Assembly (NCBI RefSeq): GCF_033095865.1 | Contig: NZ_AP019365.1 | Location: forward strand, 1,647,501 to 1,711,500 | Length of the DNA: 64,000 nucleotides | Direction of reading: 5' to 3' | Source: Pseudomonas sp. KU43P | GTDB lineage: Bacteria > Pseudomonadota > Gammaproteobacteria > Pseudomonadales > Pseudomonadaceae | In this document: positions 11,313 to 61,489 of the stretch, one piece after another | Position numbering within the stretch: the stretch's first letter is position 1 | How the letters are laid out: the number at the start of each line of letters is the position of its first letter | Made by a program: the position numbers and the translations under genes | The notes under the pieces: generated by a model | Seen by the model: the letters and a program-made list of their open reading frames with translations, nothing else | Databases searched by the model: none | Told to the model about the DNA's origin: nothing

Positions 11313-11314
11313 GC

Positions 11315-23901: not shown

Positions 23902-23940
23902 GGACTAATTATGCCTTAGTGATTTTGGAGTATTCTTTGG

Positions 23941-24552: not shown

Positions 24553-24569
24553 CGAGATTCTACCTTAAG

Positions 24570-25839: not shown

Positions 25840-25855
25840 TGGCACAGCTCTTGCT
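25840..25855 (+). promoter_or_regulatory. Sigma-54 promoter of flgBCDE
   Basis: TGGCACAGCTCTTGCT matches the -24/-12 consensus with GG and GC ten bases apart, 48 bases before the flgB start. In P. aeruginosa flgBCDE is RpoN-dependent (FleQ/FleR cascade). The 320 bases between the effector remnant and flgB hold no other recognisable gene. Confidence 0.93.
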
Positions 25856-25903
25856 CTATCTTCGGCAACGACATTCCGGTCAACCTTCGAAGGTTTCCCC
25901 GAC

Positions 25904-26311
25904 ATGAGCATCAGTTTCGACAAGGCACTTGGTATCCACGAAAAAGCCCTGGGCTTCCGCGCCCAGCGTGCCGAGGTGCTGGCCAACAACATCGCCAACG
26001 CCGACACGCCGAACTACAAGGCGCGTGACATGGACTTCTCCTCGGTGCTCGCCGCCGAGAGCCAGAAGCAGCAGAGCGGCCGTTTCGCCATGGAGCGCAC
26101 CAACAGCCGCCACATCGAGGCCGAAGGCCTGGCGATGAACGACGAGAGCCTGCAGTACCGCACGCCGACGCAGCCGTCGATCGACCAGAACACCGTGGAT
26201 GCGCAGATCGAGCAATCGAACTACACCGAAAACGCCATCGGCTTCCAGGCCAGCTTCACCTTGCTCAACAGTAAATTCAAAGGGCTGGTATCGGCCCTGC
26301 GCGGAGAATGA
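25904..26311 (+). CDS. flgB: Flagellar basal-body rod protein FlgB
   Basis: Proximal rod subunit, exported by the flagellar type III apparatus. The 135-residue protein has the flagellar rod signature AQRAEVLANNIANADTPNYKARD (about 22-44) and a C-terminal helix ending LLNSKFKGLVSALRG. First gene of flgBCDE, with a sigma-54 promoter upstream. Its stop overlaps an ATG at 26308, although the downstream gene more likely starts six bases later. Confidence 0.97.
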   Translation: MSISFDKALGIHEKALGFRAQRAEVLANNIANADTPNYKARDMDFSSVLAAESQKQQSGRFAMERTNSRHIEAEGLAMNDESLQYRTPTQPSIDQNTVDAQIEQSNYTENAIGFQASFTLLNSKFKGLVSALRGE

Positions 26312-37672: not shown

Positions 37673-37745
37673 TCCTCCTCTCGTGTCACCGGCCGCGCAT
37701 TGCCCCTACGGGGCCGTGCGCGGACCTCCTCCCAGGTCCCTCATC

Positions 37746-41318: not shown

Positions 41319-41382
41319 AGCACCGCGCCGGCGCCCAGGGCGCCGCCTGCGGTATCACTGGAATTTGAGCATCGGGTACATC

Positions 41383-44118
41383 ATGACTGGACCAACAACC
41401 GTGAACACCTTGTCACCCCGCCATACCCATGTCTTGCTGCTGGGCAGCGCCGATCAGGGTTACCGCACGCGCGCCATGGCCTACCTGCAGGCGGGCGGAT
41501 GCCAGGCCAGCGTTGTCGACGGTGAGACCGGCGAGCAGTTGCGCGCCGCGTTGAAACAGGCGCTGGACCAGGTCGATACGCCGTTCGTGGTGCTGGCCAA
41601 GGACAGTGACTTCCTGCTGGTCGATGCCCTGCAACAGGCCCTGGACTGTCTGCAGGCTCACCCCCATGTGCAGGGTGCGCAGGGCTATGCCTTGGGCATG
41701 CAGCCGGGTAACAGCACGGTCAGCTATTACCGACTGGGTCGCACGGCCCACCAGGCGGTGGCAGGTGGCCTGCGCGAGCGCGTGCAGCAGTATGGCCTGA
41801 GTGGCCTGCAGCCGTGGCGCGCGGTGCTGCGCGTGGATGCGCTGCGCAGCGCCCTGCACGAGGCGGCGCTGCAGGTGGCGGATGAAGACTGGCTGCTCGG
41901 CCTGTCCTTTGCGTTGCTGCGCCAAGGGGACATCAAGGTGCTCGAGCAGACCCAGGTGGTCAGCGAGTGCGTGGACCTGGCTGTCGATGCCGACGCCATG
42001 CTGCCGGCCATCCGCACCCTGCGCCAATGGGACGAGCAGAAAGGCGGCGACTTCGCGGACGAGGAAGGCTTCGCCATTCTGCGCCAGTTCGCGCTCAGCC
42101 TGGGTGCGCCCGACCCTGCGCCGTTGCTGTTCGTATCGCCATGGACCAGCGTGGTCAATGAGCCGGAGCGCAGCTTCGAAGCCCGTCAGTACGTCGAGCT
42201 GCCTTACTACAACGCCGGGTTGTTCCGGCAGTTGTCGGCGCTGGAGTTCCTGCAGCACGCCTGGCCGGTGGGCCAGGCCCATGTACGGGCGCTGGAGGGC
42301 GCCTGGGTGCGTCAGCGCGATCTGCTGCAGCAGCATGCCAACGACAACGTGAAGACACTGCGCAGCCGGTACTGGCAGGCACTGTCGGTCAACCTCTTCG
42401 CGCCACAGATCTGCAGCCTGCTGCTGGACACCTTGGCAGACGATGAAGACGATGCCCGCAACGAACTGCAGGCCTGGATCGAGCGCCTGCAGTTGGTTGG
42501 TGCTGCGCAGGTGTCCGAGCGCCTGGCGCACACTCCATCGGGGCAGGTGCTCCAGGCCCTTGCCCAGGCGACCTTGGACGCTGTCGGCCAGCAGCGAGTA
42601 CGCAAGCACCTGAAGGCTGGCCAGCGCACCGCAATGGCCTTGCTGGTGCTGGACCTGGCAGACGATGACGAAGCCTTGCAACGTACCTTCGACAGTGTGG
42701 TCGCCAGTGGCTTGCGCGATCTGCGCATCGTGGTGCTCAAGGCCGGCAAGCTACCTGCGATCACTACCGTGCGCGATACCTTGCACTTCATCAAGGTGTT
42801 GCCTGATACCGTTGTTTCGCACCTCAACCAGGTGGTACGCCAGCTCCCGAGCGATTGGCTGATGCTGCTGCAAGCTGGTGACGAGCTGGCCGGCAGCGGC
42901 TTGTTGCGCCTGCAGGTAGAGCTGGCGCAGGCAGGCCAGTGCCATGCCGTGTGTGGCAATGAAGTGCAGCGCGACAGTGAAGGCCGCCTGATTGCCATCC
43001 AGCGGCCAGGGGCTGACGTCGACCTGCTGCGCAGCCGGCCAGATCTCATGGCGCAGCACTGGCTGTTGCGCAAGGACGTGGTTCTGGAAGTCGGCGGGTA
43101 CAGCGACGCCTGTCGCCAGGCGCTGGAGTTCGACCTGCTGCTGCGGGTGATCGAGGCCCATGGCCTGGGCGGCCTGGCACATGTCGACGAATACCTGGTG
43201 GTCGGCCAGGTCGACCGTGAGGCCATGCTGCCGGGTGTGCTGTCCACGCTTGACCGACACCTGGGTGTGCTGGGCTACCGTGCCCAGGTCGTGCAGGGGC
43301 ATGAGGGGCGCCTGGACATCGAGTTTCGCCATGCCGCCACCCCGATGGTCAGTATTTTGCTGTCGGCCAGTGGCGACATGCAGCAGCTCGCGGCAAGCCT
43401 TGCCAGCATCCAGCAGCGTACCCGATACCCGCGTTATGAAGTGCTGGTGGTCACCGAGGGTGAGCAGCCGCAGGAAGCCAGCCTGGGCGGGCGAGTCAGA
43501 ATGTTGTCCTGCCCGTCGCAGGCGCTGGCGCAGCGCTTCAATCTGGCGGCAGAGCACGCACGTGGTGAGTACCTGGTGTTGATGAGCGACCGCAGCCAGG
43601 TTGCCAACCCAGGCTGGATTGAAGCTTTGCTCAACCAGGCCCAGCGCCCTGAGGTGGGCGTGGTGGGCTGCCAGATGTACGACGCGGACGGCAGCGTCAG
43701 CCATGCAGGCTATGAGTTGCTGGAGGGGCAGCAGGTGCATGCCAGCTGGTTGGGCGTCGCCGGCCGCGCCGGTGCTGATGCGTTGGGGTTGGGGGTGGTG
43801 CGCGCCAGCCATGCGGTTTCGGCCGATGGCCTGATGGTGCGCAAGGAGGTGTTCGAGGCACTGGGGGGCTTGCCGCAGGGCGATGCGCCAGACATCGCGC
43901 TGTGCCTGCAGGTGTCGCAAGCAGGCCTGCTGGTGCTGGTGGCGCCCCAGGCGCAATTGTTCAATGCCGGCGTGCCGTCGCTGCCGTCCGCGGTGCGCGA
44001 GGCACTGGCTGCGCAAGCGCCTTGGGCCTTCGCCCGTGCGCTGGCGGTGGATGGCGCGTTCGGCATCGGCGAGCAGCCAGGTGAGGCCGGGCCACGCTGG
44101 TTGCGTGAGCTGGGCTAG
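41383..44118 (+). CDS. Large glycosyltransferase-like protein with GT2 domains
   Basis: About 911 residues, related to the two other giant transferases here but without their GT4-like C-terminus. The N-terminal half (1-400) is a divergent or degenerate GT2-like unit followed by a helical region. GT2-type units follow near 405 (TAMALLVLDLADDDEALQRTFDSVV; WLMLLQAGDEL) and near 645 (PMVSILLSASGDMQQLAASLASIQQRTRYPRYEVLVV; LVLMSDRSQVANPGWIEALL; EVGVVGCQMYDADGSVSHAGYELL). The start is uncertain: ATG 41383 is used, GTG 41401 and TTG 41365 are possible, and no ribosome site stands out. Probably acts with the preceding gene; it ends before a strong terminator. Confidence 0.78.
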   Translation: MTGPTTVNTLSPRHTHVLLLGSADQGYRTRAMAYLQAGGCQASVVDGETGEQLRAALKQALDQVDTPFVVLAKDSDFLLVDALQQALDCLQAHPHVQGAQGYALGMQPGNSTVSYYRLGRTAHQAVAGGLRERVQQYGLSGLQPWRAVLRVDALRSALHEAALQVADEDWLLGLSFALLRQGDIKVLEQTQVVSECVDLAVDADAMLPAIRTLRQWDEQKGGDFADEEGFAILRQFALSLGAPDPAPLLFVSPWTSVVNEPERSFEARQYVELPYYNAGLFRQLSALEFLQHAWPVGQAHVRALEGAWVRQRDLLQQHANDNVKTLRSRYWQALSVNLFAPQICSLLLDTLADDEDDARNELQAWIERLQLVGAAQVSERLAHTPSGQVLQALAQATLDAVGQQRVRKHLKAGQRTAMALLVLDLADDDEALQRTFDSVVASGLRDLRIVVLKAGKLPAITTVRDTLHFIKVLPDTVVSHLNQVVRQLPSDWLMLLQAGDELAGSGLLRLQVELAQAGQCHAVCGNEVQRDSEGRLIAIQRPGADVDLLRSRPDLMAQHWLLRKDVVLEVGGYSDACRQALEFDLLLRVIEAHGLGGLAHVDEYLVVGQVDREAMLPGVLSTLDRHLGVLGYRAQVVQGHEGRLDIEFRHAATPMVSILLSASGDMQQLAASLASIQQRTRYPRYEVLVVTEGEQPQEASLGGRVRMLSCPSQALAQRFNLAAEHARGEYLVLMSDRSQVANPGWIEALLNQAQRPEVGVVGCQMYDADGSVSHAGYELLEGQQVHASWLGVAGRAGADALGLGVVRASHAVSADGLMVRKEVFEALGGLPQGDAPDIALCLQVSQAGLLVLVAPQAQLFNAGVPSLPSAVREALAAQAPWAFARALAVDGAFGIGEQPGEAGPRWLRELG

Positions 44119-44345: not shown

Positions 44346-45116
44346 ATGAAAACAGTCATCCTGGCCGGCGGCCTGGGTACACGCATCAGCGAAGAGTCGC
44401 ATCTTCGTCCCAAGCCGATGATCGAGATCGGTGGCAAGCCGATCATCTGGCACATCATGAAAATCTACTCCCACTACGGGATCAACGATTTCGTGATCTG
44501 CCTGGGTTACAAGGGCTATGTGATCAAGGAGTACTTTGCCAACTACTTCCTGCACATGTCCGACGTGACCTTCGACATGTCGGAAAACCGCATGCACATC
44601 CACAACCGCAATGCCGAGCCGTGGCGCGTGACCCTGGTCGACACCGGTGACAACACAGCCACCGGCGGGCGCCTGAAGCGTGTGCGCGACTATGTCGGTG
44701 ACGATACCTTCTGCCTGACCTACGGCGACGGTGTGGCCGATGTCGATATCCCGGCACTGATCGATTTCCACAAGGGGCACGGCAAGCTGTCCACCGTCAC
44801 TGCCGTGCAGCCGCCAGGACGCTACGGTGCGCTGGATGTGCGTGGCGAGCAGGTGCACGGCTTCCAGGAAAAACCCCTGGGTGACGGCGGCTGGATCAAC
44901 GGCGGTTTCTTCGTCCTCGAACCGGGCATCTTCGACTACATCGAAGGCGACGACACCACCTGGGAATACGAACCGATGCGCGCTCTGGCCAGCAGCGGCC
45001 AGTTGATGACCCATACCCACCGCGGCTTCTGGCAGGCGATGGACACCCTGCGCGATCGCACCTACCTGGAAGAGCGCTGGAAGTCGGGAGAGGCGCAATG
45101 GCGGGTATGGTCGTAA
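44346..45116 (+). CDS. rfbF: Glucose-1-phosphate cytidylyltransferase
   Basis: Makes CDP-glucose from CTP and glucose 1-phosphate, the entry to 3,6-dideoxyhexoses. The 256-residue protein has the nucleotidyltransferase signature GGLGTR at 8-13, RPKPMIEIGGKPI at about 21-33, the family's TYGDGVADVD metal-ligand segment, and FQEKP. The ATG at 44346 gives the full conserved start MKTVILAGG; upstream in-frame codons are not conserved. First gene of a tightly packed operon under a sigma-54 promoter. Confidence 0.95.
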   Translation: MKTVILAGGLGTRISEESHLRPKPMIEIGGKPIIWHIMKIYSHYGINDFVICLGYKGYVIKEYFANYFLHMSDVTFDMSENRMHIHNRNAEPWRVTLVDTGDNTATGGRLKRVRDYVGDDTFCLTYGDGVADVDIPALIDFHKGHGKLSTVTAVQPPGRYGALDVRGEQVHGFQEKPLGDGGWINGGFFVLEPGIFDYIEGDDTTWEYEPMRALASSGQLMTHTHRGFWQAMDTLRDRTYLEERWKSGEAQWRVWS

Positions 45117-46171
45117 GCCGCAGCTTCTGGGCCGGGCGCAGGGTCTTCCTGACTGGCCACAGCGGTTTCAAAGGCAGTTGGCTGGCGTTGTGGCTCAGCG
45201 AGCTGGGTGCCGAGGTGTACGGCTATTCGCTGGCACCGTGCACGTCTCCTGCCTTGCACGACAGCGCACGCCTGGCCGAGCGAGTGGCCGGCGAATTCGC
45301 CGACATACGTGATGCCGAGCAGTTGACGCGCAGCCTGGTGGCGTTCGAGCCGGAGATCGTCCTGCACCTGGCGGCGCAGCCACTGGTGCGCGAGTCGTAC
45401 CGCACGCCAGCGCAGACCTATGCCACCAACGTCACGGGCACGCTCAACCTGCTCGAAGCGGTGCGCCGCTGTGACACGGTGCGTGCGGTTCTGGTGGTGA
45501 CCAGCGACAAGTGCTACGAGAACCGCGAGTGGCTGTGGCCCTATCGCGAGCAGGATGCCCTGGGCGGTCACGACCCCTACAGCAGCAGCAAGGCCTGCGT
45601 CGAACTGCTCTGCGCCTCGTGGCGCGAGTCGTTCCTGCGCGAGCGCGGCGTGGCCTTGGCCACTGCACGGGCCGGCAACGTGATTGGCGGTGGCGACTGG
45701 TCGGCCGACCGCCTGCTGCCCGACATCCTGCGGGCCTGGGACGCAGGGCAGGCGCTGACCTTGCGCTACCCCGGTGCGGTGCGCCCCTGGCAGCACGTGC
45801 TCGACCCCTTGCAGGGCTACCTGTTGCTGGCCCAGGCGCTGGTCGAACAGGGCCAGGCACTGGCTCAGGCATGGAACTTCGGGCCTGACAGCGAAGGCAC
45901 GGCAACCGTGGGTGAAGTGGTCGAGGCCATGGCCGCGCTGTGGCCTGGCGAGGCGCGCTGGGCCGTCGAGGCCGGTGTCCAGCCTCACGAGGCCGGGTTG
46001 CTCACCCTCGATTCATCCCGCGCGCGCCAGCAATTGGGCTGGCGCCCGCAATGGGATCTGCAGCAGGCCCTGCGGCAGACCCTGGAGTGGCATCGCGCCT
46101 GGCGCGACGGTCAAGACATGCAGCAATACAGCCGCGCGCAGATCGCGGCCCATGAAGGCGGAAAACAATGA
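45098..46171 (+). CDS. rfbG: CDP-glucose 4,6-dehydratase
   Basis: NAD-dependent short-chain dehydrogenase/reductase enzyme converting CDP-glucose to CDP-4-keto-6-deoxyglucose. The 357 residues have the nucleotide motif GHSGFKG (20-26) and catalytic serine-threonine/tyrosine-lysine features ([15 protein letters not shown]). [20 protein letters not shown] and [10 protein letters not shown] are typical of RfbG. The ATG at 45098, with GGGAGAGGCGCA before it, overlaps rfbF by 19 bases. The 3' end overlaps rfbH by four bases (ATGA). Confidence 0.95.
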
Positions 46172-47490
46172 CTGATCAAACGGCGCAGCAGTTGCGCCAG
46201 CAAATTGCCGAACTGGTGGGCCGTTACGCGGAACTCGAGTTGACCGCACCTGCGTTCGTGCCGGGGCAGCATGCCGTGCCGCCATCGGGCAAGGTCATCG
46301 GTGCGCCGGAGCTGCAGGCCATGACTGAGGCGGTGCTGGACGGCTGGCTGACCACCGGGCGTTTCAACCAGGCCTTCGAAAAGCGTCTGGCCCGCTACCT
46401 GGGGCGCCGTGGCGTACTGACCGCCAACTCGGGGTCTTCGGCCAACCTGCTGGCGTTTTCCGCGCTGACCTCGCCGCGCCTGGGTGACCGGGCGATCCGC
46501 AAGGGTGACGAAATCATCGGTGTGGCGGCGGGCTTCCCGACCACGGTCAACCCGATCCTGCAGTTCGGTGCCGTGCCGGTGTTCGTCGATATCGAGATGG
46601 GCACCTACAACATCGACCCTGCATTGATCGAGGCGGCAATCAGCCCGCGGACCAAGGCAATCATGCTGGCCCATACCCTGGGCAACCCGTTCAACCTCAA
46701 GGTCGTGCGCGAGCTGTGCGACCGCTACGGGCTGTGGTTGATCGAGGACTGCTGCGACGCCCTCGGCGCGACCTACGATGGGCGCCAGGTCGGCAGCTTC
46801 GGCGACCTGGGTACCCTGAGCTTCTACCCCGCGCACCACATCACCATGGGCGAGGGCGGTGCGGTGTTCACCGATTCGCCGCTGCTCAAACGCATCGTCG
46901 AGTCGTTCCGCGACTGGGGCCGTGACTGCTATTGCGGCCCAGGCGAGGACAACACCTGCTCCAAGCGCTTCTGCTGGCAACTGGGCGACCTGCCGCAAGG
47001 TTACGACCACAAGTACACCTACTCGCACTTGGGCTACAACCTGAAGATCACCGACATGCAGGCCGCCTGTGCGTTGGCGCAGATGGACCGGGTCGATGAC
47101 TTCATCGCTGCACGCAAGCGCAACTTCAACTGGCTCAGCGAGCGCCTGGCCGGCTGCAGCGAGCAGTTGATCCTGCCGCACGCCACACCCAACAGTGACC
47201 CTTCCTGGTTCGGCTTCCCGCTGACCCTGCGTGACGGCTGTGGCGTCGAGCGCCTGGACCTGCTGCGCCACCTGGACGCGCAGAACGTGGGCACACGCCT
47301 GCTGTTCGCCGGCAACCTGACCCGCCAGCCTTATCTGCAAGGCCTGGAATACCGCGTGTCGGGTGAGCTGACCGTGACCGACAAAGTGATGAAGGACACC
47401 TTCTGGATCGGCTTGTGGCCAGGCTTGACCGATGACCACCTGGAACATGCTGCCAGCAGTATCGAGCAGTACGTGCGGAGGCTGCGCTGA
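46168..47490 (+). CDS. rfbH: CDP-4-keto-6-deoxyglucose 3-dehydrase (E1), RfbH
   Basis: PMP-dependent, iron-sulfur enzyme that removes the C3 hydroxyl to give the 3,6-dideoxy intermediate. The 440-residue protein has the aminotransferase fold ([29 protein letters not shown]), but in place of the PLP lysine it has histidine ([12 protein letters not shown], His223/224), the hallmark of E1. Four cysteines at 254, 256, 264 and 269 (DCYC... NTCSKRFC) suit the [2Fe-2S] cluster. It needs an NADPH reductase (E3, RfbI/AscD type), and no such gene is visible in the window. Confidence 0.95.
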
Positions 47491-48185
47491 TGCGTGCCTA
47501 CGTTCTGTGCGGCGGCTTCGGCACGCGCCTGCAGAGCGTGACCCAGGGCTCGCAAAAGGCCCTGGTCAGCGTGCATGGCGCGCCCTTCCTGCAAGCGGTG
47601 CTGTGCCAGCTGGCGCAGGCCGGCATTACCCAGGTGGTGCTGTGCGCGCACTACCGCGCCGACCAGGTGGCCGAGCAACTGCCGGCCCTGGCCCAGGCCA
47701 GCGGCCTGGCGCTGCACCTGGTGGTCGAGGCCGAGCCGCTGGGCACCGGCGGGGCGCTGCTCAATGCGCTGCACGAACACCCGGCAGCGGGGCGCTACCT
47801 GGTGCTCAATGCCGACACTTACCTGGATGCACCGGCCTACCGCCTGGCCGTCCAGGGCTCCGGCAATGCCATCCTCGGTGTCCAGGTCGACGAGCGCAGC
47901 CGTTACGGCAGCCTGGCGCTTGACGAACAGGGCGCGCTGCACGCGATCAACGAAAAAGGCGTGGCCGGCCCAGGGCTGATCAATGCCGGGGTCTATGCGT
48001 TCGACGCTGAGGCGTTTGCCGCAGCCGCTGGGCACGCCTGCTCGCTCGAGCGCGACCTGTTGCCCACCTTGTTGCGGCGCAGCGCGGTCGCTGTGTGCCA
48101 GTACCAGGGGCGATTCATCGATATCGGCACGCCGGAATCGTTTGCCCGTTACTCCAGCGAATTCCAGATGAGCGCTGCCCAATGA
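47490..48185 (+). CDS. Sugar-phosphate nucleotidyltransferase, HddC-like
   Basis: The 231-residue nucleotidyltransferase has signature GGFGTR at 8-13, QKALVSVHGAPFLQAVL, the metal-binding NADTYLD and the C-terminal FIDIGTPESFARY. It most resembles the D-glycero-D-manno-heptose 1-phosphate guanylyltransferase (HddC) group, but the true sugar and nucleotide cannot be read from sequence. It starts on the last base of the rfbH stop (TGATG) and overlaps the kinase gene after it by four bases. The pairing of HddC-like and HddA-like enzymes is that of the GDP-heptose pathway, which supports joint action. Confidence 0.85.
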   Translation: MRAYVLCGGFGTRLQSVTQGSQKALVSVHGAPFLQAVLCQLAQAGITQVVLCAHYRADQVAEQLPALAQASGLALHLVVEAEPLGTGGALLNALHEHPAAGRYLVLNADTYLDAPAYRLAVQGSGNAILGVQVDERSRYGSLALDEQGALHAINEKGVAGPGLINAGVYAFDAEAFAAAAGHACSLERDLLPTLLRRSAVAVCQYQGRFIDIGTPESFARYSSEFQMSAAQ

Positions 48186-49546
48186 ACTCACTCGTCCAGA
48201 CCCTGAGCATCAGCGAAAAGCACAGCATCCTCGATGCCGTCGAACGCATCGAGGCCGGCGCCCTGCAGATCGTTTTCGTCGTCGATGGCGCCGGGCGCCT
48301 GGTCGGCGTGGTCACCAACGGCGACGTGCGCCGGCACTTGTTGCAAGGTGGGCAGACCGACCTGCCGGTAACGGCCTGCATGAACCGCCAATTCCGAGCG
48401 GTGCCGGTGGGTACCTCGCGCGAGGAGCTGCTCAAGCTGTTCGACCTGGGCTACATCGCTCTGCCGGGTCTGGATGTCGAGCAGCGGCTGGTTGAGGTGT
48501 ACACCCGCCAGCTTGCTGCCAGTGCCGAAGTGCCGGTGCTGGCTCGGGCACGTGCGCCGGTGCGCATGAGCTTCTGCGGTGGTGGTACCGACCTGACCTA
48601 TTTCTTCATCGACCATCCGGCCGCCGTGCTGAGCTGCACCGTGGGCCTCTACGCCCACGCCACGCTGGTGCCGCGCAACGACAAGCAGATCACCATCCAT
48701 GCCGAGGACCTAGGCCGCGAAGAGCATTTCGATTGCCTGGCAGATCTGCTGGCCACCCCCGAGAAGAGCCTGCTGGCGACGATCGTTGCGGTGATCAAGC
48801 CCAAGTACGGCTTCGACCTGTTCCTGCGCTCGGACTTCCCGGTGGGGTCGGGCCTGGGCGGCTCGTCGGCGGCCACCACGGCCACCATCGCGGTGTTCAA
48901 CGAGCTGCGCCAGGACCGCTGGAGCACCTACGAGATTGCCGAACTGGCGTTCCAGGCCGAGCGCCTGTGTTTTGGCATCGCCGGAGGGTGGCAGGACCAG
49001 TACGCCTCGGCGTTCGGCGGCTTCAACCTGATCGAGTTCGAGAACCAGCGCAACCTGGTGCACCCGATCCGCCTGGAGGATGCCATTCGCAACGAGTTCG
49101 AGTCGTGCCTGCTGCTGTGCAACACCGGCATCTCCCACGACTCGGGCCGGCTGCACGAGCTGCAGCGTGAAGAGATCGCGGCCGAGGAGTCGCAGACCGA
49201 ACTGCTGCATGCCAGTGTCACCCTCTGCCGGCGCATGCATCGGCACCTGATTCGCGGCGAGCTGCGCGGGGTCGGTGAATGCCTGGATGAAGCGTGGCGG
49301 CTGAAGAAGCGCTTTTCCTCGGCGATCAGCCACGGGCGCCTTGACGCCATCTACGACGCGGCAATCGCCGCCGGCGCGGTCGGCGGCAAGCTGCTCGGTG
49401 CTGGCGGCGGTGGCTTCTTCCTGTTCTACGTGCAGCCTCAACTGCGCCAGCGTGTGATCGACGTGCTGGCGGGTGTGGGCTGTCAGACCCAGAATTTCCG
49501 CTTTGAATCCAGCGGCGTAACCTCATGGCGAGCGAAAATCCAATGA
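48182..49546 (+). CDS. CBS domain - GHMP sugar kinase fusion (HddA-like)
   Basis: 454 residues. The N-terminal about 110 residues are a CBS-type unit (QIVFVVDGAGRLVGVVTNGDVRRHLL, then GYIALPGLDVEQRLVEVYT). This is the module often fused to nucleotidyltransferases. From about 125 there is a GHMP kinase (RAPVRMSFCGGGTDLTYF; ATP loop PVGSGLGGSSAATTA at about 222; C-terminal GAVGGKLLGAGGGGFFLF). The kinase part resembles D-glycero-alpha-D-manno-heptose 7-phosphate kinase HddA. The ATG at 48182 overlaps the previous stop (ATGA). The CBS fusion is unusual and may sense a nucleotide. Confidence 0.85.
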   Translation: MNSLVQTLSISEKHSILDAVERIEAGALQIVFVVDGAGRLVGVVTNGDVRRHLLQGGQTDLPVTACMNRQFRAVPVGTSREELLKLFDLGYIALPGLDVEQRLVEVYTRQLAASAEVPVLARARAPVRMSFCGGGTDLTYFFIDHPAAVLSCTVGLYAHATLVPRNDKQITIHAEDLGREEHFDCLADLLATPEKSLLATIVAVIKPKYGFDLFLRSDFPVGSGLGGSSAATTATIAVFNELRQDRWSTYEIAELAFQAERLCFGIAGGWQDQYASAFGGFNLIEFENQRNLVHPIRLEDAIRNEFESCLLLCNTGISHDSGRLHELQREEIAAEESQTELLHASVTLCRRMHRHLIRGELRGVGECLDEAWRLKKRFSSAISHGRLDAIYDAAIAAGAVGGKLLGAGGGGFFLFYVQPQLRQRVIDVLAGVGCQTQNFRFESSGVTSWRAKIQ

Positions 49547-51441
49547 CTTCCATTCTTCTCGACGGCGTCCCTGTTGGCGGCGAGCGTGTCTACGTCATCG
49601 CCGAAGTGGGCAACAACCACAATGGCTCCCTGGCGCTGGCCCGGCAACTGGTGGATGCGGCGATCGAGGCCGGTGCCGATTGCGTCAAGTTCCAACTGCG
49701 CAACCGCGAAGCGCTGTACCGGCGCAAGGCCGATGGCTCGCGCGCCGAAGACCTGGGCGTCGAATACATCCAGGACCTGCTGGACAAGGTCGAGCTGAGC
49801 CTCGATGAACACCGCCAGGTGCGTGAGTACTGCGCCCACAAGGGCATCACCTACCTGTGCACGCCGTGGGACGAGCCGAGTGTCGATGCGCTTGCCGAGT
49901 TCGACGTGGCAGCGCTGAAGATCGCCTCGGCGGACCTGTGCAACCCGTACCTGATCGCCAAGGCCGCGAGCCTGGGCAAGCCGCTGATTCTCTCCACCGG
50001 CATGTCGTTCGAGCACGAGATCATTCGTGCCATCGAGCAGTTGCAGGCACTGGGCACGCCGTTTGCCCTGCTGCACTGCAACAGCGCCTACCCGGCCCCT
50101 GAGTCCGACATCCAGCTGGGCTACCTGGGGCGCTTGCAGCAGTTGCACGGGCTGATCGGTTACTCGGGGCACGAGCGCGGCATCGCCATCACCCTGGGCG
50201 CCGTGGCGCTGGGGGCGAAACTGGTGGAACGCCACATCACCCTGGATCGCGACATGGAAGGGCCGGACCACCTGGCCAGCCTGGAGCCGACCGAATTCCG
50301 CCAACTGGTCGAAGGTATTCGCCAGTTGGAACTGGCCCTGCCATGGCAGGGGCCTGGCCGTCATGCCAGCCAGGGCGAGCTGCTCAACCGCGAGAACCTC
50401 GGCAAAAGCGTGATTGCCGCCCGCCCCATCGCCCGTGGCAGCGTTCTCGAAGCGGGCATGCTGCGCATCGCCAGCCCTGGCCAGGGCCTGGCGCCTTACC
50501 GCCTGGAAGAGCTGCTGGGCAAGCCAGCGCAGCGGGACATCGCCCAGGGCGATTTCCTGTTCGAAAGCGACCTGCAAGAACAGCAGCCCGAACAGAAGCT
50601 GGCCTTCGACATGCCGGTGCGCTGGGGCGTGCCGGTGCGTTACCACGACTTCCTCGACTACCGCCGACGCATCGAGCCGGACCTGTTCGAGTTCCACCTG
50701 TCGTATCGCGACCTGAGCCTCGAACCGCAGCCATTCCTGGCGCCGGTTGCCTGTTCGCGCCTGGTGGTGCATGCCCCGGAGCTGTTCGAGAACAGCGAGC
50801 TGCTGGACCTGGTCGCGGACGACCCCGCCTACCGCCAGCGCTCCATCGATAACCTGCAGCGGGTGGTGGAGGCGACCGAGCAGATCGCCGCGTTCTTCCC
50901 GGATGCCGATGCCCGGCTGATCGTCGCCAATATCGGCGGCTTTTCCGCCGATGCGCCGCGCCCCCTGGCGATGCGCCCGGCGCTGTACGAGCGCTTCTAC
51001 GAGAGCTGCGCACGGGTCGACTTCGGCAGCACCGAGCTGATCCCGCAAAACATGGCGCCGTTCCCATGGCACTTCGGCGGCCAGCGTCACCAGAACATTT
51101 TCATGATGCCGGACGAGCTGGCCGCCCAGGCCCGTGACAGCGGCATGCGCCTGTGCCTGGACCTGTCGCACCTGCAGATGACCTGCTTCCACTTCGGCCT
51201 CGATTTCCAGGAAGCCCTGGGCTTGCTGTTGCCGTACTCGGCGCACCTGCACGTGGCGGATGCCAAAGGCACCAACGGCGAAGGCGTGCTGATGGGCACC
51301 GGCGACATCGACTGGCCTGCGGCCTGGGCGCAGATCAAGGCCCATCGGCAGGTGAGCTTCATTCCAGAGGTATGGCAAGGCCATAAGGATCACGGCGCAG
51401 GTTTCTGGTCGGCGCTGGCGTTTTTGAATCGATTGAATTGA
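49543..51441 (+). CDS. NeuB-family synthase fused to a TIM-barrel sugar isomerase/epimerase
   Basis: 632 residues. Residues 1 to about 255 are a NeuB/SpsE sialic-acid-synthase domain (VYVIAEVGNNHNGSLALARQLVDAA; GADCVKFQ; ALLHCNSAYPAPESD; IGYSGHERG; RHITLDRDMEGPDHLASL), which condenses phosphoenolpyruvate with a sugar. An SAF/antifreeze-like domain follows (about 275-340; RPIARGSVLEAGMLRIASPGQGL). From about 360 a xylose-isomerase-like TIM barrel (RLCLDLSHLQMTCFHFG; HLHVADAKGTNGEGVLMGTGDIDW) completes the protein. The ATG at 49543 forms an ATGA overlap with the kinase gene; an ATG at 49525 would add six residues. The substrate is unknown; a nonulosonic-acid-like product is possible. Confidence 0.87.
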   Translation: MTSILLDGVPVGGERVYVIAEVGNNHNGSLALARQLVDAAIEAGADCVKFQLRNREALYRRKADGSRAEDLGVEYIQDLLDKVELSLDEHRQVREYCAHKGITYLCTPWDEPSVDALAEFDVAALKIASADLCNPYLIAKAASLGKPLILSTGMSFEHEIIRAIEQLQALGTPFALLHCNSAYPAPESDIQLGYLGRLQQLHGLIGYSGHERGIAITLGAVALGAKLVERHITLDRDMEGPDHLASLEPTEFRQLVEGIRQLELALPWQGPGRHASQGELLNRENLGKSVIAARPIARGSVLEAGMLRIASPGQGLAPYRLEELLGKPAQRDIAQGDFLFESDLQEQQPEQKLAFDMPVRWGVPVRYHDFLDYRRRIEPDLFEFHLSYRDLSLEPQPFLAPVACSRLVVHAPELFENSELLDLVADDPAYRQRSIDNLQRVVEATEQIAAFFPDADARLIVANIGGFSADAPRPLAMRPALYERFYESCARVDFGSTELIPQNMAPFPWHFGGQRHQNIFMMPDELAAQARDSGMRLCLDLSHLQMTCFHFGLDFQEALGLLLPYSAHLHVADAKGTNGEGVLMGTGDIDWPAAWAQIKAHRQVSFIPEVWQGHKDHGAGFWSALAFLNRLN

Positions 51442-51472
51442 GCCGAACGTTCGGCGAACTGAGGTTTGAGAG

Positions 51473-53272
51473 ATGGGAAACAAGATGCGTGTAGCTGACT
51501 ACATCATGAATCGGCTGGCGGAGCTGGGCATCAAACAGGTGTTCTTCCTGCCGGGCGGCGGTGCCATGCATCTTAACGATGCCCTGGGCCGTCACCCTGA
51601 CCTCGAGCCGGTCCTATGCCTGCATGAACAGGCCTGCGGCATTGCCGCCGAGGCCGCCGGCAAATTGTCGGGCGGGCCGAGCGCCTGCATGACTACCTGC
51701 GGGCCGGGCGCCACCAACGCGGTCACCGCGACTCTGGGCGCCTGGCTGGACTCCACCCCGGTGTTCTTCATTTCCGGGCAGGTGAAGACCGCCGACCTCA
51801 AGGCTGACAGCGGCCTGCGCATGTTGGGTGTGCAGGAAGCCGATATCGTCTCGATCGTGTCGTCGATCACCAAGCGCGCCGTGACCCTGACCGACCCGCT
51901 GGCCGTGGCCGAAGTGTTCGACGAGCTGGAGCACGCCGCGCTCACCGGCCGTCGTGGCCCCGTGTGGCTGGACGTGCCGTTGGATGTGCAAGCGGTGCAG
52001 ATCGACCCGGCGACCCTGCGGCGTGCGCGCCTACCAGCACCGGCTGCGGCCGCTGACCTCACGCAGCCCGTGGCCCGTACCCTGGAGCTGCTCAAGCAGG
52101 CCAAACGCCCGGGCATCATTGCCGGCAGCGGCATCCGCATGGCAGGGGCGGTCGAGGCGTTCCGGCAGCTGGCGCAAAGCGCTGGCGTGCCAGTGATGCC
52201 GACCTGGCTGGCGATGGACCTGATCGAAGACGAGCACCCGCTGTACGGTGGCCGTCCAGGTTCGATCGCACCTCGCTGGGCCAACTTCACCCTGCAGAAC
52301 TGCGACCTGTTGATCGTTCTCGGCTCGCGCCTGGACATGGCACTGACTGCCTACAACCATGCGCACTTCGCACCCAAGGCGAAAAAGATCGTGGTCGACA
52401 TCGACCCAGCCGAAATCGCCAAGCTGCAGATGGACATCGAGTTGCCGGTGGTCTGTGACGTCAAGCCGTTCATCGAACAGCTGCAAGCGGCGGTGAATAC
52501 CGAGTGCCTGCCAGACTTCGCCAGCTGGCGTGCGCAGATCGCGACCTGGCGTGCACGTTATCCGCTGCTGCAGGCCGAGCACGCCGACGACAGCCAGGGC
52601 GTGAGCATGTATCACTTCAGCGACCGGCTTTCGGACCTGCTCAAAGAGGGCGATGTCATCGCCCCGGGCAGCTCCGGCTTCGCGTCGGAACTGTTCCTGC
52701 TCAACCTGCGCTTGAAGAAGGACCAGCGCTGCTTCCACAACCGCGGTACCGGCTCGATGGGCTTTGGCGTACCAGCGGCGATCGGCGCATGCCTCGCGGC
52801 GGGGCGCAAGCAGACCATCTGCGTCGACGGCGACGGTGGTGTGCAGATGAACATCCAGGAACTGGCGACCCTGGCAGCGCAGAAGTTGCCGATCAAGTGC
52901 TTCGTCATCAACAACCAGGGCTACGCCTCGATCCGCACCTCGCAGAACGCGCACTTCAAGTTGCTGGTCGGCGCCGATGCCAGCAGCGGCCTGCAACTGC
53001 CTGACCTGCAGCAGCTCACCGCAGCCTACGGTGTCGGCTATGCGCGCATCGACAGCCATGCGGCGCTCGACGAGCAATTGCTGGCCGTGCTCGAGCGCGA
53101 CGGCCCAGTGGTCTGCGAAGTCGTGGTGCAGGTCGAGGAAGCGCGCGTGCCGCGCGTCATGACCCGCATCAACGAACAAGGCAAACCCGAGACCGGCGCG
53201 CTGGAAGATCTGTACCCCTTCCTGCCACGGGACGAGTTTGCCGCGCAGATGGCCATTTCGGAGCACGACTGA
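51473..53272 (+). CDS. TPP-dependent acetolactate-synthase-like enzyme (candidate YerE-type branching enzyme)
   Basis: 599 residues with the three-domain layout of TPP enzymes: an N-terminal Pyr domain with catalytic glutamate Glu52 (LHEQACGIAAEAAG), a central DHS-like domain (about 195-325) and a C-terminal PP domain with the TPP/Mg motif DGDGGVQMN...INNQG (about 445-480). The N-terminus resembles acetolactate synthases, but no regulatory subunit or ilv gene is near. In Yersinia, YerE of this superfamily adds an acetaldehyde unit from pyruvate onto CDP-3,6-dideoxy-4-ketoglucose, the very compound RfbFGH lead to. That role is inferred from context. A GAG-rich leader (GGTTTGAGAG) precedes the ATG at 51473. 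Confidence 0.8.
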   Translation: MGNKMRVADYIMNRLAELGIKQVFFLPGGGAMHLNDALGRHPDLEPVLCLHEQACGIAAEAAGKLSGGPSACMTTCGPGATNAVTATLGAWLDSTPVFFISGQVKTADLKADSGLRMLGVQEADIVSIVSSITKRAVTLTDPLAVAEVFDELEHAALTGRRGPVWLDVPLDVQAVQIDPATLRRARLPAPAAAADLTQPVARTLELLKQAKRPGIIAGSGIRMAGAVEAFRQLAQSAGVPVMPTWLAMDLIEDEHPLYGGRPGSIAPRWANFTLQNCDLLIVLGSRLDMALTAYNHAHFAPKAKKIVVDIDPAEIAKLQMDIELPVVCDVKPFIEQLQAAVNTECLPDFASWRAQIATWRARYPLLQAEHADDSQGVSMYHFSDRLSDLLKEGDVIAPGSSGFASELFLLNLRLKKDQRCFHNRGTGSMGFGVPAAIGACLAAGRKQTICVDGDGGVQMNIQELATLAAQKLPIKCFVINNQGYASIRTSQNAHFKLLVGADASSGLQLPDLQQLTAAYGVGYARIDSHAALDEQLLAVLERDGPVVCEVVVQVEEARVPRVMTRINEQGKPETGALEDLYPFLPRDEFAAQMAISEHD

Positions 53273-53273: not shown

Positions 53274-54029
53274 ATGGCGTGGCTGAAGAGAACGCTGACG
53301 GGCTGGAGCTATCGCTACTTGCGTGGCACCCGCGCATGGGCGCATGCCCGCTCGCCGGAAATCCACCACGAGCGGCTGTTGCCTTACGCCAGCTATGCGC
53401 CCTGGCAGGGTGACCAGGCCTTCGAGCGCGCCTTGGCGCAGGTCCAGGGCAAAACCCTGGTCGACAAGTATCGCCTGTACGAACTGTGGTCGCTGGCGCG
53501 TCAGCTGGAGCACCTTGAAGGGGACTTCCTCGAGGTCGGCGTCTGGCGGGGCGGCTCCGGCTGCCTGCTGGCGATGGCCAGCCAGCGCCCCGGTCGCCAG
53601 GTGTTCCTGGCCGATACCTTTGCCGGGGTGGTCAAGGCGGGCAGCCACGACACCCGCTATCAGGGCGGCGAGCACGCCGACACCGACATCGGCCTGGTCC
53701 AGGCGCTGGCACGCGAGTGCGGCGTTGCCGACCGCGTGCAACTGCTCAAGGGGATGTTCCCCGAAGAGAACGCCGAGCGCGTCACGGGGCAACTGGCCTT
53801 GGTGCATATCGACGTCGATGTCTACGAGTCCGCTCGCGACGTGCTGAACTGGGCATTGCCGCGCCTGCTGCCAGGCGCCGTGGTGGTGTTCGACGACTAC
53901 GGCTTCTTTGGCTGTGAAGGCGTGACCCGCCTGGTCAACGCCTTCGTGCTCGACAATCCGGACTTCCGCTTCCTGCACAACCTCAATGGCCACGCCGTGC
54001 TGGTGCGCGTGGGAGCCAGCCATGCTTGA
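53274..54029 (+). CDS. TylF/MycF-family O-methyltransferase
   Basis: SAM-dependent methyltransferase of the macrocin O-methyltransferase type, which acts on sugars. The 251-residue protein has LEGDFLEVGVWRGGSG (SAM-binding, about 80-95), VFLADTFAGVVKAG, the metal-ligand-like HIDVDVYES and VVVFDDYGF. The ATG at 53274 is one base after the TPP-enzyme stop codon; in-frame upstream codons lie inside that gene. It probably methylates the glycan or its precursor. Confidence 0.87.
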   Translation: MAWLKRTLTGWSYRYLRGTRAWAHARSPEIHHERLLPYASYAPWQGDQAFERALAQVQGKTLVDKYRLYELWSLARQLEHLEGDFLEVGVWRGGSGCLLAMASQRPGRQVFLADTFAGVVKAGSHDTRYQGGEHADTDIGLVQALARECGVADRVQLLKGMFPEENAERVTGQLALVHIDVDVYESARDVLNWALPRLLPGAVVVFDDYGFFGCEGVTRLVNAFVLDNPDFRFLHNLNGHAVLVRVGASHA

Positions 54030-55086
54030 CCGGCAGAACTTCAAGCACCTGCTGGTGTACGGCGCTCGCCTGGCGGGGCAGCGTGTGCAGGCCTACCTGG
54101 CTGAGCGCGATATCCGCGTCGACGGCTTTCTCGACCGCGACACCTTGTTGGGCGATGTCCAGGGGCTCGGCGTCAGCACTGCGCAGGCCTGGGCCGAGGC
54201 CCATGACCCGGCCCAGGCCTGTGTGGTCATCGGCCTGTTCAACAACTACGTCGATGTGGCCGAGGTGGTGCGTGACCTGCGCCAGCTCGGTTTCGGCCGA
54301 GTGCTCAGCCTGGTCGAGTTCGTCAACCTGATGCCGGAGGGGCAGCCGTTTCGCTACTGGCTGGTCGAAGGCGCCTATTACCAGGCCCATGCCGAGCGCA
54401 TTGCATTCATGCGCGAGCACCTGGCCGACGAGGCCAGCCGCACGTTGCTCGACCGTATCGTCGAATTCCGGACCACCGGCGACTACCTGGGCCTGCCCGC
54501 ACCGTCCCCACGCCAGTACTTCCCCGCCGACCTGCCGGCCTGGCCGCAGCCGCTGCGTTTCATCGATTGCGGCGCCTACGTGGGCGACACCGTGGCAGAA
54601 ATGCGTGAGGCAGGCGTGGCGTTTGCGTCGGTCGCGTGTTTCGAGCCCAACCTGGAGAACTATGCAGCCCTGGTCGAGAGCGTGCGTGGCCTGGATGCGG
54701 TGAACTTCCCGTGCGGGGTATCCGACCGCAACCGCCAGGTGGGCTTCGATGGGGCCCTGGGCGCCGGTGGCCACCTGGTCGAGTCGGGCGGCGAGACGGT
54801 GACCTGCGTGCGCATCGACGACGCCTTGCCGGGCTTCGCGCCAAACCTGATCAAGATGGATATCGAAGGCGAGGAACCTGCGGCGCTGGAAGGTGCGAGG
54901 CAGACCTTGGCGCGCCATCGACCGAACCTGGCCATCAGCATCTATCACCGCGCCGAACACCTGTGGAGCATCTTCGAGCAGTTGCACGGCTACGGGCTGA
55001 ACTACCGATTTTATTTGCGCTGCCACGCTCACAGCACGTTCGACACCGTGCTGTATGCGCTGAGCAGTGAAGAGGGAAGACCATGA
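54022..55086 (+). CDS. FkbM-family methyltransferase
   Basis: The 354-residue protein has an N-terminal Rossmann-like region (LLVYGARLAGQRVQAYLAERDIRVDGFLDRD) resembling a sugar/CoA-binding fold. The FkbM methyltransferase domain follows from about 175 (FIDCGAYVGDTVAEMRE; ACFEPNLENYAALVE; LIKMDIEGEEPAALEGA). The start at 54022 has GGGAG nine bases upstream and overlaps the previous gene by eight bases. FkbM-type enzymes methylate hydroxyls of small molecules and glycans. Confidence 0.87.
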   Translation: MLDRQNFKHLLVYGARLAGQRVQAYLAERDIRVDGFLDRDTLLGDVQGLGVSTAQAWAEAHDPAQACVVIGLFNNYVDVAEVVRDLRQLGFGRVLSLVEFVNLMPEGQPFRYWLVEGAYYQAHAERIAFMREHLADEASRTLLDRIVEFRTTGDYLGLPAPSPRQYFPADLPAWPQPLRFIDCGAYVGDTVAEMREAGVAFASVACFEPNLENYAALVESVRGLDAVNFPCGVSDRNRQVGFDGALGAGGHLVESGGETVTCVRIDDALPGFAPNLIKMDIEGEEPAALEGARQTLARHRPNLAISIYHRAEHLWSIFEQLHGYGLNYRFYLRCHAHSTFDTVLYALSSEEGRP

Positions 55087-55715
55087 GCCTGTTGGAAAAG
55101 TCGATCTACTGGGACAGCTTCTACAGCAGTCGTAAAAAGGGCGCGCCGGCGTACCCCTCGCAGTTTGCCGCGTTTGTCATCAATGAACTGGCGGATGTCG
55201 ACGGCATCATCGAGTTCGGCTGTGGCAATGGTCGCGACAGCGAATTCTTTGCCGCTCACGGCTTCGAGCTGCTGGCCCTGGATGCCTCGAAAGAGGCCAT
55301 CGAGCTGTGCCGGTCGCGTTCCGCCCATGAGCGTGCGCGCTATGTGCAATCCACGGCAGGTGAGGCACGCGACGCCCTCCAGGGCTTCCTGGCCGGCAAG
55401 CGCAAGGTGGCCGTGTACGCACGGTTCTTCCTGCATGCAATCGAGGAAGCCGAGGCCGCGGCATTGCTGGACCTGCTGGGCGTGATGCTGCCCTCCGGCA
55501 GCCAGGTGTTCTTCGAGTACCGCACCGTGGACGATGCAGCCCAGGACAAGATCTTCGGCACCGACCACTATCGTCGCTACCTGGAACATGGCAGTGCATT
55601 GGCCGGCATCGAGCGGGCAGGGTTCAGCATCGTCTACCAGATCGAAGGGCACGGCCTGGCCAAGTTCCGCGACGAAGATGCCAAGGTTGGCCGTTGTGTC
55701 GCGCAGAAAAATTGA
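55083..55715 (+). CDS. Class I SAM-dependent methyltransferase
   Basis: A 210-residue methyltransferase with motif I GIIEFGCGNGRDSEFFA (about 42-58), the acidic LLALDASKEAIEL and a C-terminal LAKFRDEDAKVGRCVAQK. It overlaps the FkbM gene by four bases (ATGA). The third methyltransferase in a row; the target is unknown and could be a carboxyl, hydroxyl or amine of the sugar. Confidence 0.83.
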   Translation: MSLLEKSIYWDSFYSSRKKGAPAYPSQFAAFVINELADVDGIIEFGCGNGRDSEFFAAHGFELLALDASKEAIELCRSRSAHERARYVQSTAGEARDALQGFLAGKRKVAVYARFFLHAIEEAEAAALLDLLGVMLPSGSQVFFEYRTVDDAAQDKIFGTDHYRRYLEHGSALAGIERAGFSIVYQIEGHGLAKFRDEDAKVGRCVAQKN

Positions 55716-55740
55716 GCAGCAGTGAACCGAGGTGAATGAC

Positions 55741-56661
55741 ATGCAGGACCTGCAAGGCAAGAAAATCGTCCTCTTTGGCGCGGGCAAGAGTGGCGGCCTG
55801 TTCATCGAGCAGAACCTGGCACTGAACATTCTGGCCGTGGCCGACAACGACCCCGGCAAGCAGGGTGGGCTGTTCAATGGCTACCCGGTGATTGCTGCGC
55901 AGCAGATCGCCCAATCCGGTTGCGAGGTGATCGTGATCACCAGCGTCTGGTCCGACAGCATCCTCAAGCAATTGGCGGAGCTGGGCCTTGACCACCTGCC
56001 GACGGTGATTCCGGGCAAGCGTGAAATGAAGGGCATGCGCGACATCCATCCCTTCTCCCACCCGTTGACCAAGCGCTTGGCCAGCGAGCTGGTGATCGCC
56101 TTGAACACCCTCACCGATGCTGCAGGCATCGATCTGTACCTGGACTTCGGCACGTTGCTCGGCGCTTTGCGCGAAGGCGATTTCATCGCTTGGGACGACG
56201 ATATCGACTTTTCCGTGAATGCCGAGCAGTTCGAGCGCCTGGTCGGCCTGGTGCGGGAAAACCGCGACAGCCTGCCGGTGCACGAAGGCGTGTTGTGGCG
56301 CATCGAGGTGATCGCCACCCATGGCGTCGACTTCGCGATCCGCATCACTTGCGACAACGCCGAGGGAAGCGACGCGATCATCCCGTTCGAGACCGACATC
56401 GCCCGCCGTGTGCGCCGCGACGGTTCGGCTGTGGTGATTGGCGCCATGCCGGAGTGGTTCTGCCCCGAGCGGCACTTCGATGGCTTCGACCCGGTGCAGC
56501 TGTTTGGCACGACGCTCAAGGCGCCAAGCGATGCCTACGGCTACCTGGATTTCGTGTATGGGGAGTGGCAGGTGCCGAAGAAGGACATGTCGTTCGCCGA
56601 TTACAACCATTCCGGCGAAGTGCTGTTCGAGCACTACGACAATTCCATTCGCGCGCTGTAA
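55741..56661 (+). CDS. LicD-family transferase with N-terminal Rossmann-like domain
   Basis: 306 residues. The first about 100 (KKIVLFGAGKSGGLFIEQ...) form a small nucleotide-binding-like fold similar to the N-terminal part of the FkbM protein before it. From about 115 is the LicD domain, with the nucleotidyltransferase-fold active site LDFGTLLGALREGDFIAWDDDIDFSV. LicD proteins attach phosphocholine or similar phospho-groups to glycans. The ATG at 55741 is favoured (GAGG eight bases before); a GTG at 55732 is possible. It suggests a phospho-substituent on the flagellin sugar. Confidence 0.83.
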   Translation: MQDLQGKKIVLFGAGKSGGLFIEQNLALNILAVADNDPGKQGGLFNGYPVIAAQQIAQSGCEVIVITSVWSDSILKQLAELGLDHLPTVIPGKREMKGMRDIHPFSHPLTKRLASELVIALNTLTDAAGIDLYLDFGTLLGALREGDFIAWDDDIDFSVNAEQFERLVGLVRENRDSLPVHEGVLWRIEVIATHGVDFAIRITCDNAEGSDAIIPFETDIARRVRRDGSAVVIGAMPEWFCPERHFDGFDPVQLFGTTLKAPSDAYGYLDFVYGEWQVPKKDMSFADYNHSGEVLFEHYDNSIRAL

Positions 56662-56730
56662 CACGCGTGCCAGGAAGCGACCGGGCCCTGCGTGGGCCCG
56701 GTCACGTTCAACGGTCAGCAGGAGTTCCAG

Positions 56731-61247: not shown

Positions 61248-61489
61248 ACCGGGCCTGCCTGCAGGCAATGGCCACCCATCACGCGATGATTCTTGCCCGT
61301 GGTTTCACTTGGGCGACAAAAAGCGCGTGACTCGGGAGTCAGAACGGGCATCTTCACTGTATATTGTCGAAACCGGGAACCGTCGTGTCGCCCGGACACA
61401 GCGTCAGGGATAGGGCCTGCACCCATCGCCTGGCGTTTTGCCGTTTAGGCCACGACGGGCATTTCGCTGTTACTGAATTGGGAAGCCAT
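61248..61489. other. 242-base gap before the KAS III-like gene
   Basis: No gene recognised. Contains GACTCGGGAGTC (61329-61340, short inverted repeat) and an AT-rich TGTATATTG near 61358 that could be a -10 element. A TGG-TTTCACTTGG-GC sequence near 61303 has sigma-54 spacing but a poor -12 core, so it is not claimed. Confidence 0.3.

Follow-up and report, generated by a model that had tools for sequence, protein, structure and literature searches.

A NeuB-family synthase beside a YerE-like enzyme in a Pseudomonas flagellar island: a candidate route to long-branched dideoxy sugars

Which sugar is made by the genes that lie between a flgL-like gene and fliC in Pseudomonas sp. KU43P? We analyzed 64,000 nucleotides of this genome (NZ_AP019365.1, positions 1,647,501 to 1,711,500; hereafter, the window), and in particular an operon that combines rfbF, rfbG, and rfbH with a gene for a thiamine diphosphate (ThDP) enzyme (Table 1). 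A sequence-only reading of this operon had proposed that the Rfb proteins form cytidine diphosphate (CDP)-4-keto-3,6-dideoxyglucose, that the ThDP protein resembles YerE and adds a two-carbon unit to this intermediate, and that the yersiniose-like product is placed on flagellin. Most of that proposal holds up, but the two-carbon branch probably does not. Immediately 5' of the ThDP gene is a fusion of NeuB, SAF, and TIM-barrel (AP_endonuc_2) domains, preceded by genes for a nucleoside triphosphate (NTP) transferase and a CBS-GHMP kinase; the earlier reading was silent on all three. From the sequences and their linkage, we think it quite probable that the operon makes a CDP-activated 3,6-dideoxyhexose that carries a long hydroxylated branch at C-4, as in caryophyllose, and that this sugar is placed on flagellin.

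Linkage of NeuB-family and YerE-like genes

The ThDP protein contains all three thiamine pyrophosphate (TPP) domains and is a complete ThDP enzyme. It is below the cut-off in all 25 of the NCBIfam families listed, of 54 matched; for instance, it scores 349 bits against acolac_lg, whose cut-off is 538 bits. The closest solved relative is 8rph (371 bits), and the next is the acetolactate synthase 6lpi (248 bits). The protein is 35% identical to 8rph versus 30% identical to the genome's own acetolactate synthase III, which is encoded at 5.09 Mb (1128 bits, cut-off 951). E52, which we take to be the catalytic glutamate, is invariant across the 13 rows of our alignment A1, and the protein contains CLHEQ and VDGDGG...NN, presumably the GDG...NN motif of ThDP enzymes. 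8rph is the structure of JanthE, which has been termed YerE-like (PMC12188165).

To place this protein among its relatives, we selected 99 loci by similarity to the ThDP protein alone: 18 from Pseudomonas, another Pseudomonas locus (L074), and 80 named loci from many phyla. Because L075 and L076 come from the same genomes as L035 and L037, 97 of the 99 are distinct; our counts use 99. In a quick LG+G4 tree with 96 rows, a branch with a support of 100 (Shimodaira-Hasegawa-like approximate likelihood ratio test) separates the window's protein, JanthE, and 89 of the loci from five other ThDP enzymes of the same genome. (L035, L036, L038, L041, L042, L045, L075, L076, L079, and L099 were omitted from the tree, and the long branches that meet at L074 with L050 and L051 should be read with caution.) The proposed kinship to YerE is thus upheld by way of JanthE, the YerE-like reference among the rows. 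Given the scores below the acetolactate synthase cut-offs, the best solved relative, and the branch support, the protein is, by its sequence, a YerE-like ThDP enzyme.

The proposed acceptor is well supported too: RfbF, RfbG, and RfbH all exceed the curated NCBIfam cut-offs by wide margins, which bears out the formation of CDP-4-keto-3,6-dideoxyglucose. All 18 of the other Pseudomonas loci that were found with the ThDP protein contain RfbF, RfbG, RfbH, a match to NeuB, and a match to the short-chain dehydrogenase/reductase (SDR) described below. Across the 99 loci, 70 have a match to RfbH.

NeuB matched 80 of the 99 loci, and in 74 of these 80, it is on the same strand as the ThDP gene and at most 3 kb upstream. 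(We detected upstream genes by tblastn and with local profiles, and applied Pfam to selected examples.) In this sample, the pairing of NeuB with a YerE-like ThDP enzyme spans 13 named phyla. According to the local profiles, NeuB carries a fused TIM domain like the window's in 20 loci and a fused cupin in 31; a short form occurs in 25 loci, and the remaining 4 have some other form. Pfam identified the cupins in L048 and L142 as Lyx_isomer or Cupin_2, and the one in L048 resembles the D-lyxose ketol-isomerase 2y0o. By length and alignment, the 25 short NeuBs (frames of 272 to 283 amino acids) end before the SAF part, and 21 of their loci have a match to a HAD phosphatase near the ThDP gene. (Pfam supplied the HAD assignment for seven stand-alone genes and for two fusions to a SIS domain, in L113 and L135.)

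Within Pseudomonas, 14 of the 18 loci have a NeuB that is 81 to 93% identical to the window's, along with matches to the TIM domain, the NTP transferase, and the kinase. In the other four (L048 to L051), the NeuB is distant (29 to 30% identity), and nothing matches the window's TIM domain, NTP transferase, or kinase. From this split we conclude that the pairing of NeuB with the ThDP enzyme outlives the replacement of the other genes.

2-Keto acids of a type that a ThDP decarboxylase-ligase could use are known products of NeuB, of KdsA-type synthases together with a phosphatase, and of HMGL-family aldolases. Of the 19 loci that lack a match to NeuB, 8 carry an HMGL-like gene on the upstream side of the ThDP gene (adjoining it in all but L133, where it is one gene away). 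The same queries found no HMGL-like gene in any of the 80 NeuB loci (P = 4e-7, Fisher test). Because the eight loci form a single clade, which lies within the NeuB-linked part of the tree, we count them as one switch. The HMGL-like calls are from Pfam for L127, L141, L145, L148, and L154, and from blastp likeness to those for L133, L137, and L144.

We also ran the test in reverse, by picking loci by their type of NeuB without using the ThDP gene. The window's type of NeuB (at least 81% identity and frames of at least 644 amino acids) is present in 20 of 398 Pseudomonas genomes; the next matches listed are at most 39% identical. Five of these 20 loci were new, and all five have RfbF, RfbG, RfbH, and the ThDP enzyme nearby. 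None of the five has a NeuA-like match. Similarly, the NeuB of Mycobacterium szulgai matched in 5 of 198 Mycobacterium genomes, one of which is M. szulgai itself; in the other four, NeuB is beside ThDP, RfbF, and RfbH-like genes. As controls, we considered loci with classical NeuBs. The ThDP enzyme was found in none of 15 from Pseudomonas and none of 20 from other Gammaproteobacteria, and NeuA was found in 14 and 17 of them, respectively. These controls were hand-picked (20 of 36 places above 120 bits in Gammaproteobacteria, and 15 of those listed as classical for Pseudomonas), and some of their contigs are short (3.4 kb for L198 and 5.5 kb for L206).

Residues of the NeuB protein and the proposed pathway

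The fusion protein is the only match to PF03102 in the whole genome. We compared it to NmNeuB, along with the other ThDP-linked NeuBs (81 rows, including the window). Lys53, Lys129, Ser132, Ser154, Tyr186, Ser213, His215, His236, and Glu282 of NmNeuB, which we take to be the residues for phosphoenolpyruvate (PEP) and metal, are all retained in the window's NeuB. Across the 81 rows, Ser154 is retained in 75, and each of the others is retained in 79 to 81. Arg314, which presumably contacts the N-acetyl group of N-acetylmannosamine, is replaced by serine in the window and in all five of the new Pseudomonas loci. Arginine is present in this column in just 1 of the 56 ThDP-linked rows that reach it (the other 25 are gapped), versus 17 of 20 classical NeuBs from Gammaproteobacteria and 15 of 15 from Pseudomonas. 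The sole exception is L123, whose NeuB does not adjoin its ThDP gene. (At this position, 4ipi and 4ipj differ from 1xuu.) The Glu134 column is glutamate or aspartate in 19 of 20 controls; in the ThDP-linked rows, it is serine in 45 of 81 and aspartate in 23 of 81, including the window. Given that the PEP and metal columns are kept and Arg314 is gone, the ThDP-linked NeuBs have probably retained the PEP chemistry and lost the recognition of N-acetylhexosamines.

The window's NeuB thus shares with the NeuB, PseI, and LegI synthases the fold family, the PEP and metal residues, and the SAF domain. It differs from them in having serine at Arg314, a fused TIM domain, an adjoining ThDP gene, and no NeuA: in the complete genome, the only matches to the CMP-synthetase family PF02348 (CMP, cytidine monophosphate) are KdsB and a GlmU-like protein. 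It follows that a NeuB gene need not signal sialic or pseudaminic acid, and we suggest that serine, isoleucine, or phenylalanine in the Arg314 column, along with a ThDP neighbor, marks another use of NeuB. As a caution about labels, PDB entry 3g8r, a "probable spore coat polysaccharide protein E," is close to the ThDP-linked NeuB of a Pseudomonas locus (L048:8174-9700, 461 bits), and its name may mislead.

We propose the following pathway. First, RfbF, RfbG, and RfbH would form CDP-4-keto-3,6-dideoxyglucose. Second, the TIM domain would supply an aldose that lacks an N-acetyl group, and NeuB would condense this aldose with PEP to give a 3-deoxy-2-keto acid. Third, the YerE-like enzyme would decarboxylate the keto acid on ThDP and join the acyl carbanion to the ketone at C-4, which would yield a tertiary alcohol. 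Finally, the SDR would reduce the new ketone, and the methyltransferases and glycosyltransferases would finish and attach the sugar. The sequence shows which enzyme families are present, how the genes are linked, which residues have changed, and that the position is flagellar; from the NeuB-TIM step onward, we infer each reaction, as well as the identity of the aldose and the attachment to flagellin.

The known YerE-like lyases include YpYerE, ErwE, JanthE, and MMAR_2332 (PMC12247030). The window's enzyme belongs to the same ThDP class and has the genes for the proposed acceptor alongside, but it is paired with a NeuB-family gene and lies in a flagellar island. ErwE and similar enzymes favor long hydroxylated keto acids (PMC12247030), and the accessible text of that review names no source for such donors; the words NeuB, neuraminate, and flagell are absent from it.

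A known sugar with such a branch is caryophyllose, or 3,6-dideoxy-4-C-[D-altro-1,3,4,5-tetrahydroxyhexyl]-D-xylo-hexopyranose (PMC5706390). Its branch is deoxy at C-2', beside the carbinol, as expected if the donor is a 3-deoxy-2-keto acid. In Mycobacterium marinum, a deletion of MMAR_2331 and mutants in MMAR_2332 or MMAR_2333 accumulate a precursor without caryophyllose (PMC5706390). MMAR_2332 is YerE-like (PMC12247030), and MMAR_2333 is a glycosyltransferase (PMC4403928). L258 and L259, two of the mycobacterial loci, have the gene order glycosyltransferase family 2 (GT2), ThDP, and NeuB, which parallels MMAR_2333-2332-2331; by this gene order only, MMAR_2331 is likely a NeuB. A NeuB-family gene is beside YerE-like and Rfb genes in the window and in the four other mycobacterial loci, and M. 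marinum may have the same arrangement. One difference is that the sugar of M. marinum is on lipooligosaccharide, whereas the window's island is flagellar.

More broadly, we think it likely that NeuB-family proteins have a second and widespread job, in which 3-deoxy-2-keto acids are spent as carbanion donors for higher-carbon branched sugars instead of becoming CMP-activated sialic acids. Pseudomonas flagellins would be decorated this way, and their sugar would be diversified by swapping the enzymes that make the donor and join it. The NeuB or HMGL-like partner gene would then predict the donor route for each YerE-like enzyme, so that products could be tested from gene order. If so, branched sugars with a tertiary alcohol join the known decorations of flagellin. 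In a literature search that mostly left out subscription papers, we found no report of such a branched sugar on flagellin or of NeuB in the synthesis of branched sugars.

Competing explanations

One competing explanation is that the ThDP enzyme adds a two-carbon unit from pyruvate, as in the synthesis of yersiniose A, and that the NeuB block serves another sugar. Like the yersiniose A pathway (ddhA-D, yerE, and yerF), the window has RfbFGH, a YerE-like enzyme, and an SDR all together. Homologs of ddhA-D, yerE, and yerF have been reported together as a yersiniose set in Pseudomonas WCS417, with no NeuB named in the accessible text (PMC4509608), and JanthE accepts short as well as longer donors (PMC12188165). 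Furthermore, two loci have RfbFGH and the ThDP enzyme without NeuB: L151, and L074 from Pseudomonas, which has ABC transporter genes and resembles an O-antigen cluster. However, the donor in the yersiniose A pathway is pyruvate (PMC12247030), for which a dedicated synthase is needless, and the window has the NeuB-SAF-TIM gene directly upstream. Because NeuB, in several forms, accompanies this ThDP clade in 80 of 99 loci, because an HMGL-like gene does so in 8 more, and because both reverse tests found the pairing every time (5 of 5 and 4 of 4), a pyruvate-derived branch is unsupported. The two-carbon part of the sequence-only reading is probably wrong: it retains a small chance of being correct, and the larger hydroxylated branch of caryophyllose fits better.

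A second explanation is that the island makes two sugars: a nonulosonic acid from NeuB that is CMP-activated and placed on flagellin, and a separate dideoxy sugar from RfbFGH and the ThDP enzyme. Nonulosonic acids are described as common on flagellins, and the window's NeuB scores 309 bits against NeuB_NnaB, though this is below the cut-off of 400. Also, 3 of the 80 NeuB loci have a NeuA-like match. We consider this explanation unlikely: the genome has no CMP-synthetase beyond the two PF02348 proteins mentioned above, the equivalent of Arg314 is lost, and NeuA-like matches occur in 4 of the 99 ThDP loci as compared to most of the classical controls. Finally, the ThDP gene might code for a common acetolactate synthase or decarboxylase that happened to be caught up in the island. 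We rejected this explanation as highly improbable: acetolactate synthase large subunits are most of the NCBIfam names that the protein matched, but all of the scores listed are below the cut-offs, 8rph outscores 6lpi, the tree puts the protein nearer to JanthE than to five other ThDP enzymes of the genome, and a separate acetolactate synthase III is encoded elsewhere.

Several observations weigh against a NeuB-derived branch as we propose it. In 11 of the 99 loci, the stretch analyzed gave no match to NeuB or to an HMGL-like gene; for 4 of them, the sequence breaks off a short way upstream of the ThDP gene. In 6 of the 80 NeuB loci (L097, L100, L116, L121, L123, and L146), NeuB falls outside the 3 kb upstream of the ThDP gene or is on the opposite strand, and in L258 and L259, it is downstream of the ThDP gene. 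The four NeuA-like matches are in L128, which lacks NeuB; L150, which has a second NeuB; L088; and L131, where the match is about 10 kb away. The TIM domain has no relative in PDB by sequence at E = 1. The minimal route has no place for the NTP transferase and CBS-kinase, which could serve to produce another sugar. Many of the named loci are from metagenome bins. And because most of the proteins behind the scan alignment (A1) were NeuB-linked, the demonstrated linkage applies only to this portion of the YerE-like family.

Flagellar setting and other genes of the island

As the sequence-only reading had supposed, the gene set is flagellar: flgK and the flgL-like gene precede the island, and fliC, which encodes the likely acceptor protein, follows it. 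These flgL-like and fliC genes account for all of the matches to Flagellin_N in the genome. The genes of the island are collinear, and neighbors overlap or almost touch; for instance, the CBS-GHMP kinase begins with an ATG that overlaps the stop codon of the NTP transferase gene. In the stretches that we fetched, 15 of the 18 other Pseudomonas loci have matches to FlgK, FlgL, or FliC. In G050, the flagellar match is FlgK alone, about 30 kb away. A further locus, L039, has a weak match to FlgL (31%). The genomes of P. viridiflava and P. syringae GAW0119 had no match to FlgK, FlgL, or FliC, even with an extra 20 kb on each side.

Table 1. Features of the island, in order along the window
Feature	Position	Strand	Matches
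flgL-like gene, left edge of island	36089..37672	+	PF00669
Two large glycosyltransferases (37632-41318, 41365-44118)	37632..44118	+	PF00535
RfbF/DdhA, glucose-1-phosphate cytidylyltransferase	44346..45116	+	TIGR02623, 469 bits (cut-off 300)
RfbG/DdhB, CDP-glucose 4,6-dehydratase	45098..46171	+	TIGR02622, 495 bits (cut-off 278)
RfbH/DdhC, pyridoxal phosphate-dependent dehydrase of 3,6-dideoxyhexose pathway	46168..47490	+	NF011936, 735 bits (cut-off 423)
NTP transferase, HddC-like, far below HddC cut-off	47490..48185	+	PF00483; NF049965, 124 bits (cut-off 300)
CBS domain-GHMP kinase fusion, heptokinase-like	48182..49546	+	PF00571, PF00288, PF08544; NF049969, 227 bits (cut-off 600); PDB 4n3o, 4usm
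NeuB-SAF-TIM (AP_endonuc_2) fusion	49543..51441	+	PF03102, 258 bits; PF08666; PF01261; below NeuB and PseI NCBIfam cut-offs
YerE-like ThDP lyase	51473..53272	+	Three TPP domains
TylF-like methyltransferase	53274..54029	+	PF05711
FkbM-type methyltransferase	53986..55086	+	PF05050, TIGR01444
S-adenosylmethionine-dependent methyltransferase	55083..55715	+	PF13649
LicD-family protein	55732..56661	+	PF04991
Large glycosyltransferase with GT2-type and GT1-type domains	56692..60204	+	PF00535, PF13692
Extended SDR, candidate YerF-like ketoreductase for the branch	60201..61247	+	PF01370; GxxGxxG, YxxxK
Ketoacyl-acyl carrier protein synthase III-like, last gene before fliC	61364..62425	+	PF08545, PF08541
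fliC, right edge of island, likely acceptor protein	62678..63526	+	PF00669, 146.8 bits; NF009444, 477 bits (cut-off 332)

The earlier suggestion that the gene at 60201 encodes the reductase fared less clearly. It does encode an SDR, with GxxGxxG from residue 35 and YxxxK from residue 181, and a YerF-like role is possible. By blastp, homologs of this SDR are present in 42 of the 99 ThDP loci at E values of 2e-31 or better, and in 52 at 1e-10; in L151, the homolog lies between RfbH and the ThDP gene. Such co-occurrence is what points to YerF. In one flagellar locus from Pseudomonas (L048:13561-15324), the SDR is fused to an adenylylsulfate kinase domain (PF01583, 200 bits), which hints at a link between the branched sugar and sulfate activation. 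As for the NTP transferase and the kinase, their likeness to HddC and HddA, at scores below the cut-offs, suggests heptose-1-phosphate chemistry.

YerE-like enzymes of at least four distinct lineages seem to have entered the flagellar island in Pseudomonas. L034 to L043 and L044 to L047 have nearly the same RfbFGH-NTP transferase-kinase-NeuB-TIM block, but their ThDP enzymes are 79 to 88% and 47 to 50% identical to the window's, respectively; this contrast suggests that the joining enzyme was swapped.

Elsewhere in the family, the YerE-like enzymes of L128 (9236-11800) and L139 (9212-11800) have about 250 additional residues at the N terminus, ahead of the ThDP domains, and this stretch had no match in Pfam, which was run on L128. 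Both loci belong to the 11 that matched neither NeuB nor an HMGL-like gene. L101, from a contig titled uncultured archaeon, has two YerE-like genes (3243-5027 and 10594-12336) in one locus with NeuB and RfbH. In the window itself, a gene of the LicD family sits in this flagellar glycosylation island, and G+C content is lower (54 to 56%) than in most of the window at 2001-4000 and 22001-26000.

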